The notes below the pieces were generated by a model, which ran no database searches, had not been told where the DNA came from, and was given only the letters and a program-made list of their open reading frames with translations. Position numbers and translations under genes: made by a program. A stretch of DNA of 18,033 bases from an uncultured Hippea sp. (lineage in GTDB: Bacteria > Campylobacterota_A > Desulfurellia > JAADFJ01), in NCBI GenBank assembly GCA_913009315.1, contig CAJVZA010000038.1:1-18033 (forward strand), written 5' to 3'. Below are positions 4,895 through 8,024 of this stretch, in pieces (within the stretch, counting starts at the first letter, position 1; every line of letters starts with the position of its first letter).

Positions 4895-6447
4895 TATGCA
4901 GCAATTTCGGTTGCCCTTATCTCTCTTATGGCAGTAACCTTCACTTCTCCCGGATAAGTTACCTTATTTTTAATTTCAGAGGCAATCTCTTTTGCCAAAA
5001 GATAAGTTTCATCATCATTTATGTTCTCCGGGTTTACAATCACTCTCACCTCTCTTCCGGCCTGAATTGCATAGCATTCTTTAACATTCGGAAAACCTTT
5101 TGCAACCGTTTCAAGTTCGGATATTCTTTTGATATAGTTCGCCAAAAGCTCACTTCTTGCGCCGGGTCTTGCTGCCGATAATGTATCGGCTGCACTTACA
5201 AGTACCGATTCAGGGCAGGAGGGAGCTATTCCGCCATGATGTGAAAGTATGGCATTTACAACCTCTTCCGGTTCATTGTATCGCCTTGCAACATCTGCTC
5301 CAAGTTCAGGATGGCTGCCTTCGGCTTCCTGATCCAGCGCTTTTCCGATATCATGCAGCAGACCCATTCGTTTGGCAAGTTTAGTTCTCAGTCCCAATTC
5401 GCTCGCCATAATACCTGCCGTATATGCAACCTCAACCGAATGCGCCAGAATATTCTGTGTATAGCTTGTCCTGAATTTCAATTTCGCAAGAAGACGAACA
5501 ATATTGGGATTTATGTTGCCGATATTAAGCTCAAAGAGAATCTTCTTTGTATCACTCATAGCTTCTTCATCAAGTTCATACTTAACCTTTTTTACTGTAG
5601 CTTCAATCTTAACGGGATGTATTCGTCCGTCGACTATAAGCCGTTCAAGCGCCACCTGAGCTATTTTACGTCTGTAGGTATTAAAACTGGACAATACGAC
5701 AACTTCCGGTGTATCATCTACAATCACATCAACACCTGTCACATTTTCGAACGATCGTATATTTCTTCCTTCACGTCCTATTATTCTTCCTTTCATATCA
5801 TCACTCGGTATGCTTACTGTCGATGAAACCTTTTCATTTATAAAGCTGTTTGATATTCTATCACATGTTAACGCCAGAATCTTCGAGCTCTTCTCTTTGG
5901 CAGTCTCCAAAGTCTCTTCCTCTATTTTACGCAAGATTTCAACCGATTCTCTCATGGCAGACTCCTTCACAGATTCAATCAACTGTTGTTTTGCCTCCCT
6001 GCTGCTCATATTGGCCACTTTCTCAAGCTGATTTAGTATATCCTGCTTTTTATTCAGCATCTCCTTTTCTTTGATATCCATACTTTTCTGCCTATCATTG
6101 ATGTCCGACTCTCTTTTATAGAGTTCCGACTCTTTCGAATGCAGTGATTTTTCCTTTTTATCAAGCAGATCTTCTCTATAATTTATACGCTTAAGCGCTC
6201 GCTTGGTTTCCTCTCGCTTTTCCTTAACTTCATTGTTGACTTCAAGTATCATTTGAGCCACTCTTTTGTTAGCCTCAGATTCTACTTTTGCCCTTAATAT
6301 TTCTGCATCTCTTTTTGCATCTTCAATAATCTTTCGTGAGGATTCCATACTTTTCATATAGCCTTTTTTTACAAATACCGAGTAAAAAATATACAGAATA
6401 ATCGCACCTAACAAAAACCCCAATATAAACATTAATGTACTATCCAT
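4894..6447 (-). CDS. rny: Ribonuclease Y
   Basis: A 517-residue protein with the full RNase Y architecture at normal length (about 520). It has an N-terminal membrane helix (about 5-27), a long charged coiled coil (about 35-190), a KH RNA-binding domain (about 205-270, G-R-E-G-R-N at 224-229) and an HD hydrolase domain with H336 and the pair H365-D366 in L-L-H-D-I-G-K-A, plus S-H-H-G-G (402-406). RNase Y is a membrane-anchored endoribonuclease that starts mRNA decay. Start ATG at 6447 has an excellent Shine-Dalgarno (AAAGGAGA, 6-nt spacing) inside the end of the upstream cyclo-ligase gene, with an 8-nt overlap. Finding it directly after 5-formyltetrahydrofolate cyclo-ligase is common in deltaproteobacteria-like genomes. 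Confidence 0.96.
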   Translation of the reverse strand: MDSTLMFILGFLLGAIILYIFYSVFVKKGYMKSMESSRKIIEDAKRDAEILRAKVESEANKRVAQMILEVNNEVKEKREETKRALKRINYREDLLDKKEKSLHSKESELYKRESDINDRQKSMDIKEKEMLNKKQDILNQLEKVANMSSREAKQQLIESVKESAMRESVEILRKIEEETLETAKEKSSKILALTCDRISNSFINEKVSSTVSIPSDDMKGRIIGREGRNIRSFENVTGVDVIVDDTPEVVVLSSFNTYRRKIAQVALERLIVDGRIHPVKIEATVKKVKYELDEEAMSDTKKILFELNIGNINPNIVRLLAKLKFRTSYTQNILAHSVEVAYTAGIMASELGLRTKLAKRMGLLHDIGKALDQEAEGSHPELGADVARRYNEPEEVVNAILSHHGGIAPSCPESVLVSAADTLSAARPGARSELLANYIKRISELETVAKGFPNVKECYAIQAGREVRVIVNPENINDDETYLLAKEIASEIKNKVTYPGEVKVTAIREIRATEIAA

Positions 6448-7012
6448 TGTTTTCTCCTTTATTAAAATCGTTACATCTAATTATTTCTCTTTCTGTTACA
6501 ATAAAATCGACAGGAATATCAAAGCTGTCTGCATAAATCTGCTTGATTATCTGAAATGAAAAGGCGGGAGCAACCAGAACCGATTTGGTTTCGGCAAAAA
6601 AACGATCATAAAAACCTCCGCCGTAGCCGATTCGCCGACCGGATTTGACGAATGCAATTCCGGGAACCAATATGATATCGATATCGGAAGCCGGTTCACT
6701 GTCTGCAGGCTCAGGTATCCCTTTATAACCTGCAGCGAGACAGTCCAAATCATCGACTTTTACAGGCTTTATATTTTGGTTTACTACCTTAGGCAGGATC
6801 AGGACACCTGTTTCCAATATATGATAAAGCAAAGGTGTTATATAGACTTCATTATTTACGGGGACGAACCCCATAACTCTTTTATATCCTGTCAAAAATC
6901 TGTCTTGCAAATGATGACAAACTTTCTCACTTAAGCTATGATAAACTTCTTCGGACAGATTTTTTCTTCTGTTTAAAACAGAGTGTCTTATACTTTTTTT
7001 ATCTTTTTTCAC
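6440..7012 (-). CDS. 5-formyltetrahydrofolate cyclo-ligase
   Basis: The enzyme converts 5-formyl-THF to 5,10-methenyl-THF using ATP. The diagnostic G-Y-G-G-G-F-Y-D-R motif is near the C-terminus, with the basic N-terminus K-K-S-I-R-H-S-V-L-N-R-R and V-P-V-N-N-E-V (substrate region). I chose GTG at 7012 (190 residues): AGGA lies 5 nt before it and the protein then begins V-K-K-D-K-K-S-I-R, as in the family. An in-frame TTG at 7036 would add eight residues but has no ribosome site. The stop overlaps rny by 8 nt. The gene lies immediately downstream of a candidate 6S-like RNA, the classic ssrS-ygfA/fau linkage, and its leader contains a perfect 12-nt inverted repeat. Confidence 0.92.
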   Translation of the reverse strand: MKKDKKSIRHSVLNRRKNLSEEVYHSLSEKVCHHLQDRFLTGYKRVMGFVPVNNEVYITPLLYHILETGVLILPKVVNQNIKPVKVDDLDCLAAGYKGIPEPADSEPASDIDIILVPGIAFVKSGRRIGYGGGFYDRFFAETKSVLVAPAFSFQIIKQIYADSFDIPVDFIVTEREIIRCNDFNKGENNG

Positions 7013-7026
7013 TATCTTCCTGTCAC

Positions 7027-7124
7027 AAGTAAGCAACAGGGTTCAAGCGGTTTTTTTAGCTTCAGTGTTTATCTAACCATTATATAAATCTTATATAAGC
7101 TATATATTTTTGTGTTGCTTACTT
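7027..7124 (-). promoter_or_regulatory. Perfect 12-nt inverted repeat in the cyclo-ligase leader
   Basis: On the minus strand AAGTAAGCAACA (7124-7113) and TGTTGCTTACTT (7038-7027) are exact inverted copies separated by 74 nt. The second arm ends just before the GTGACAGGAAGATAGTG that carries the ribosome site and start codon of the cyclo-ligase gene. The loop is AT-rich and contains a 10-bp palindrome CTTATATAAG (7090-7099) and a TATAAT (7084-7079) with no clear -35. In RNA this would form a leader hairpin close to the ribosome site. In DNA it could be an operator. The arms are seen directly; the function is inferred. Confidence 0.5.
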
Positions 7125-7125
7125 C

Positions 7126-7267
7126 ATTGATCCGCCCAGCCGTGTAGACTGTCTCCATGAACCCGCTATATGCAGGAAACAGCTCCCTTGCAAACTTGTC
7201 ACAATTTGGCCGTCAAATTACAGGTGTTGGTACAGGAAACAAACATCCATCACCAACTGGGCAGACC
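7126..7267 (-). ncRNA. ssrS: Candidate 6S-like regulatory RNA
   Basis: The gap between the glutamate-synthase GXGXG gene and the cyclo-ligase gene encodes a well-bounded structured RNA. The 5' strand GGTCTGCCCAG region (7267-7257) pairs with CTGGGCGGATC (7139-7129) in an 11-bp helix including G-U pairs, closing a roughly 140-nt RNA. Inside are an exact AATTTG/CAAATT hairpin, a GTTGGT/ACCAAC helix, and CTGTTTCC (about 7182-7175) pairing with GGAGACAG (7156-7149). A sigma70-like promoter lies just upstream. 6S RNA sequesters RNA polymerase by imitating an open promoter: a rod with a closing stem, a central bubble and a terminal stem. It is usually encoded directly upstream of 5-formyltetrahydrofolate cyclo-ligase. 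Identity rests on context and the closing stem, since sequence conservation is low. The length is on the short side for 6S. Another leader RNA is possible. Confidence 0.5.
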
Positions 7268-7269
7268 TC

Positions 7270-7297
7270 TATATATATTAGTGCAAAAATCCGTCAA
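7270..7297 (-). promoter_or_regulatory. Sigma70-like promoter for the small RNA
   Basis: On the minus strand TTGACG (7297-7292) and TATATA (7275-7270) are 16 nt apart, with the 18-nt alternative TATAGA overlapping. The predicted start, near 7263-7266, falls on the 5' strand of the closing helix of the candidate RNA. The -35 lies inside the last codons of the GXGXG gene, so the RNA could be made independently of the glt operon. Confidence 0.5.
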
Positions 7298-8024
7298 TGT
7301 AAAGGTTTTTATACGGTCTGTTTGTTGCAGAGATAATTTTTGTAAATCTACTTTTCATCACATTATTGTAGTTTATGTTTAATTCCTGACAATATTCAAA
7401 CAGATATTCTTTTATCTGCAATAGATCTTCCTGCAATAAAGAGGTTACTTTTACCTCTCTTCCCAAAGAATCGCTGTTGACCTTGCCTCTCACTATAATT
7501 ATTCCGCCATGCATACCTGCGCCGATAAAGTTGCAGTCATAGGTATTGATTTCGGAAAACAGATCAAGTATCACAAGAACTCCTCCGGCCATATACTCTC
7601 CGGCAAACTCTCCGGTTCTGCCTCCAATAATAACAATCGGAAAATCATCCTTATACGATTTCATATGTATGCATGTCCTGTATCCTACGTTGCCCCTAAC
7701 ATATATTCGCCCGCCTCTCATACTGTAACCCAGCACATCTCCGGCATTTCCGTCAATTACAATTTTTCCGCCGCTCATTGTGTTGCCGATGCCATCCTGG
7801 GCATCACCATGTACATAAATAGAGGGACCATCCATAAAAATTCCCAGATCATTTCCGGGTATTCCATTTATATCAATTTTCACAGGCTGCATTAATCCAT
7901 CTCCAATATAATACTGACCGTAAACATTATTGATTGCTATATTTCTATAGCCGGAATCCACAGCATCATGTATCTGATCGTTTAATATCTTATAATAAAG
8001 TTTATTCGCATCTATTGTTTTCAT
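7278..8024 (-). CDS. Glutamate synthase GXGXG-domain subunit (GltB3-type)
   Basis: A 248-residue protein made largely of the right-handed beta-helix that forms the C-terminal domain of GltB. The repeated G-x-x-G-x-x-x-x-G turns are clear, for example G-N-T-M-S-G-G-K-I, L-G-Y-S-M-R-G-G-R and F-A-G-E-Y-M-A-G-G. In split, archaeal-type glutamate synthases this is a free-standing structural subunit that helps shape the ammonia tunnel between the amidotransferase and FMN sites. ATG at 8024 follows the amidotransferase stop by 2 nt, with GAGGG as ribosome site. It is the last gene of the five-gene operon. Similar domains occur in formylmethanofuran dehydrogenase FwdC and in N-methylglutamate synthase, but the neighbours point to glutamate synthase. 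Confidence 0.9.
   Translation of the reverse strand: MKTIDANKLYYKILNDQIHDAVDSGYRNIAINNVYGQYYIGDGLMQPVKIDINGIPGNDLGIFMDGPSIYVHGDAQDGIGNTMSGGKIVIDGNAGDVLGYSMRGGRIYVRGNVGYRTCIHMKSYKDDFPIVIIGGRTGEFAGEYMAGGVLVILDLFSEINTYDCNFIGAGMHGGIIIVRGKVNSDSLGREVKVTSLLQEDLLQIKEYLFEYCQELNINYNNVMKSRFTKIISATNRPYKNLYIDGFLH

Follow-up and report, generated by a model that had tools for sequence, protein, structure and literature searches.

Evidence for a short, diverged 6S RNA gene in front of the cyclo-ligase gene of an uncultured Hippea sp.

Bacteria widely make 6S RNA, a small RNA that sequesters their RNA polymerase. The window analysed here, a stretch of 18,033 nucleotides from an uncultured Hippea sp., almost certainly encodes such an RNA, in the form of a short and diverged copy that lies just under the database cut-off. 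The best explanation of the whole, which we consider very probable, is that the minus strand at 7125–7270 carries the sole detected 6S RNA, which is transcribed from a housekeeping-type promoter and acts in the ordinary 6S manner. The RNA is a divergent addition to a well-known family and no new kind of system. The strength of the case lies in the combination of a unique RF00013 match, an exact syntenic slot and conservation in a sister species.

7125..7270, minus strand: 6S RNA gene; RF00013 at 40.1 bits, model positions 1–187 of 187, with the relatives' model R1 landing on the same bases
about 7268–7267 to about 7129–7125, minus strand: predicted mature ends of the 6S RNA

A sequence-only reading had called a 6S-like RNA at this place and had proposed a covariance search with the Rfam 6S family. 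In a permissive Rfam scan with all families, RF00013 matched 7125–7270 with E 1.1e-6, over the full length of the model, in sequence and structure and on the minus strand only. Together with RF00013 matches in the same slot of relatives, this bears out the call, though the score misses the RF00013 gathering score of 46.4 bits, which is a curation cut-off and no biological feature; a scan of the window at gathering thresholds gave no match. Nowhere else in the genome of 1.74 Mb does RF00013 match at an E value of 10 or less, and the permissive scan yielded no RF00013 match on the plus strand of the window, nor on the antisense strands of the 6S genes of six relatives. Matches of the window to snorna families in the permissive scan were below cut-off, concerned eukaryotic or archaeal families and were dismissed as chance.

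The 6S gene occupies the slot between the glt and cyclo-ligase genes, as had been read from the letters, and domain matches identify its neighbours.

7278..8024, minus strand: glutamate synthase GXGXG subunit gene, upstream of 6S (PF01493, E 2.7e-34)
6440..7012, minus strand: 5-formyltetrahydrofolate cyclo-ligase gene, downstream of 6S (PF01812, E 6.9e-34)

Comparison with the sister species points to GTG 7012–7010, behind AGGA at 7021–7018, as the probable start of the cyclo-ligase gene; it is favoured over TTG 7036, where the longest open reading frame begins, inside arm 2 of an inverted repeat that is treated below. Elsewhere, the window carries genes for a SAM hydroxide adenosyltransferase (PF01887, PF20257; 14280–15047, plus strand) and, near the contig end, for a type III restriction enzyme res subunit (PF04851, PF19778; 15060–17711, minus strand).

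The comparison set was made up of 24 further genomes from the genus and class. RF00013 matched in 22 of them, all outside the window's genus, and 21 of these 22 matches exceed the gathering score. Genes for the cyclo-ligase and RNase Y lie downstream of 6S in all 22, as in the window, and the GXGXG gene is found directly upstream in 14. In the consensus structure of the relatives' alignment 96.4% of cells are paired, both partners have changed in 14 pairs, where shuffles give 10.6, and double-changed cells number 76, as compared to 22.7 in shuffles. A covariation test of the closing helix in relatives had been suggested along with the 6S call. For the consensus structure, the covariation score is 0.368; shuffles score 0.215, and slid partners no more than 0.138. 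The relatives' 6S structure covaries strongly. Orthology of the window 6S RNA is indicated by its conserved position together with this covarying structure in the relatives. In G001, the third genome of the genus, neither the cyclo-ligase gene nor the GXGXG or RNase Y gene was matched, so that nothing can be read from its lack of a 6S gene; these absences probably reflect an assembly gap.

A model built from the 22 relatives with the window left out (R1) finds a single match on the genome, on the same bases as the RF00013 match (27.5 bits, E 7e-5). By itself this score is weak evidence, because the antisense strands of the relatives' true 6S genes reach 13–37 bits with R1, as a result of the 6S molecule being a rod. 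A profile of the relatives without structure (nhmmer) did not match the window, and identity at class-invariant columns was dropped as a test, since the antisense strands of true 6S genes do as well. Antisense rods scoring up to 37 bits leave some room for an explanation in which no separate RNA is made and the region, 6S-like only in being a long rod, serves as an operon spacer or as a structured leader on the cyclo-ligase mRNA; the RF00013 score under the Rfam cut-off and the probable structured leader element just downstream also fit this. It is nevertheless very unlikely: RF00013 does not match the antisense rods and matches at this genome place only, over-threshold 6S genes occupy the same slot in relatives, and the sister species has kept 89% identity in the 6S body as opposed to 40% in the spacer.

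The preferred reading, a genuine 6S RNA, can be followed in detail in this sister species (L032, genome G002), which has the same gene arrangement as the window and whose 6S RNA scores 28.4 bits with RF00013. Between the two species, the 6S body is 89.4% identical, as compared to 78.6% for the GXGXG gene, 67.7% for the cyclo-ligase gene and 40.3% for the spacer between 6S and the cyclo-ligase gene. Four pairs vary, each by a one-sided change; all four are still paired and none is broken. Purifying selection on the 6S RNA between the two species is strong. A match of an L032 hairpin to the L25 leader family is under its cut-off and was set aside as chance.

The RNA is short, with 146 nt against 157–192 nt in the relatives, and diverged, and many class-invariant positions have changed. 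It could in principle be a 6S RNA by descent that has lost its open-promoter function and now has another role, such as that of a processing or leader element. With the strong purifying selection and the intact pairing between two species on the other side, and with a genome in which no other 6S match is found, we give this explanation hardly any credence and prefer a 6S RNA that still functions as such.

The fold predicted for the 6S RNA is rod-like: between the closing helix and the apical stem lies an open internal region. Its free energy for 7125–7270 is -55.9 kcal/mol (z -4.0), which none of 200 shuffles matched.

7257..7267, minus strand: 5' strand of the closing helix, GGUCUGCCCAG, from sequence and fold
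7129..7139, minus strand: 3' strand of the closing helix, CUGGGCGGAUC, from sequence and fold

The sequence-only reading had described an 11-bp helix closing about 140 nt, which was recovered: GGUCUGCCCAG (7267–7257) and CUGGGCGGAUC (7139–7129) form 11 pairs, two of them G-U, and close 139 nt. The longest inverted repeat in the 6S RNA with Watson-Crick pairs only is 6 bp, a length reached in 879 of 1000 shuffles; since such a run is not beyond chance, the closing helix alone proves little. The computed folds of the window RNA and its L032 counterpart both contain the closing helix and the apical stem, and alternative pairings of the central bubble region are predicted in both species and in the relatives. 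In an alignment of the relatives' 6S RNAs (A2), the near-invariant CACCUAACAAUG can pair with CGUUGUUAGGUU (columns 41–60 with 149–162). This pairing spans the expected open bubble and competes with GAGCC–GGUUC, and it may be a refolding pair for release.

Transcription of the 6S RNA would start from a housekeeping-type promoter of which the -10 box overlaps the GXGXG stop codon.

7298..7303, minus strand: probable -35 box TTTACA, kept in the sister species; from a promoter scan
7275..7280, minus strand: probable -10 box TAATAT, overlapping the GXGXG stop codon; from a promoter scan and the sister species

The arrangement TTTACA (7303–7298)-17-TAATAT (7280–7275) is common to the window and L032 and predicts a start at about 7268–7267, which is the first base or edge of the closing helix; TTTACA lies within conserved LY codons, and its conservation is no independent evidence. 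A different promoter in the end of the GXGXG gene had been proposed, TTGACG (7297–7292)-16-TATATA (7275–7270). Its motifs are indeed present, but it is a poor choice, because the number of promoter-like sites in the region (7) is close to that in shuffles (6.5), and because TTGACG is driven by the LYIDG codons and is changed to TTAACG in L032. TTTACA-17-TAATAT is probably the better promoter reading. Read-through from the glt operon is a possible second source of 6S transcript, and co-transcription with the cyclo-ligase gene, followed by trimming, is probable by analogy with E. coli.

Judging from family membership, the most likely partner of the 6S RNA is the housekeeping RNA polymerase holoenzyme, which it would bind by mimicking an open promoter. 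The RNA would hold the holoenzyme during slow growth and come off it when the polymerase transcribes a short pRNA, with the 5' side of the central bubble as template. An alignment to the E. coli pRNA start, U44, predicts that this pRNA begins near 7226.

7226..7236, plus strand: predicted first bases of the pRNA, 5'-GUUGGUACAGG, placed by aligning the RNA with the U44 start of E. coli

The spacer between the 6S and cyclo-ligase genes holds a further structured element.

7113..7124, minus strand: AAGTAAGCAACA, arm 1 of an inverted repeat of 12 bp, immediately past the 3' end of the 6S RNA; from shuffles and L032
7027..7038, minus strand: arm 2, TGTTGCTTACTT, of the inverted repeat; from shuffles and L032
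7019..7040, minus strand: alternative hairpin CCTGTTGC-TTACTT-GTGACAGG, which includes arm 2 and some of the ribosome-binding site

Arm 1, AAGUAAGCAACA (7124–7113), can pair over 12 bp with arm 2, UGUUGCUUACUU (7038–7027), a length that none of 2000 shuffles reached; the L032 version is 11 bp, with 3 of 2000 shuffles. The arms are 100% (arm 1) and 93% conserved in L032, beside an otherwise diverged spacer. When arm 1 is present, the 12-bp helix between the arms is predicted and the ribosome-binding site is free, and when arm 1 is left out, arm 2 is predicted in both species to enter a hairpin of 8–9 bp over part of the ribosome-binding site; the two structures are mutually exclusive. As a lead from two sequences, these alternatives point to a possible switch, located in the leader of the cyclo-ligase gene, that would link the two cistrons. 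That pairing of the arms frees the ribosome-binding site of the cyclo-ligase gene, with RNAs lacking arm 1 hiding the site in the hairpin, is possible, but we hold it to be rather doubtful. If true, translation of the cyclo-ligase would depend on read-through and trimming of the 6S transcript, and the old linkage between 6S and the cyclo-ligase would gain a physical mechanism in this genus. The repeat also suggests an alternative role, as a double-stranded site for trimming of the 6S 3' end. A mobile element or repeat family was considered for the arms and rejected, the motif occurring at one other genome place only. In four relatives (L013, L014, L015 and L017), a different small hairpin, e.g. 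UUGGC...GCCAA, lies 3' of 6S directly before the cyclo-ligase ribosome-binding site, so that hairpins in this leader may be found more widely across the class.

The position in front of a cyclo-ligase gene, which the sequence-only reading had called classical for 6S RNA, agrees with the literature. The E. coli 6S RNA shares a transcript with ygfA, a gene of the cyclo-ligase type (PMC2848244), and 6S has a cyclo-ligase gene as its neighbour in alpha-, gamma- and a number of further groups (PMC9130861). Among the papers of the literature collection that was searched, none joins 6S RNA with Desulfurella. The present analysis supplies the 6S RNA of a genus in which automatic annotation overlooks it at the Rfam cut-off, and it indicates that the linkage of 6S, cyclo-ligase and RNase Y is kept across the class, although purD is the neighbour of 6S in C. 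jejuni and H. pylori, the 185-nt C. jejuni RNA being encoded upstream of it (PMC3847290). The conserved alternative helices offer one testable mechanism for the linkage of 6S and cyclo-ligase, for this genus only.

As compared to the ssrS-ygfA system of E. coli (6S / SsrS, RF00013), the window RNA is likewise a rod with a closing helix and an apical stem, and it is likewise encoded directly upstream of a 5-formyltetrahydrofolate cyclo-ligase gene. It differs from typical 6S RNA, with a length of about 180–200 nt (PMC9130861), in being about 140 nt long, in scoring 40.1 bits and in its diverged bubble and apical arm. The Campylobacter and Helicobacter RNAs belong to the same family and differ in their location by purD. 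With the 6S RNAs of its class (L003 to L048) it shares the slot before the cyclo-ligase and RNase Y genes, mostly after the GXGXG gene, as well as the blocks GUGAU, UUUCC, CCAACACCU, GGUUC and CACGG, whereas those RNAs measure 157–192 nt and score 45–98 bits, and the genus of the window has a shorter RNA that has diverged a great deal.
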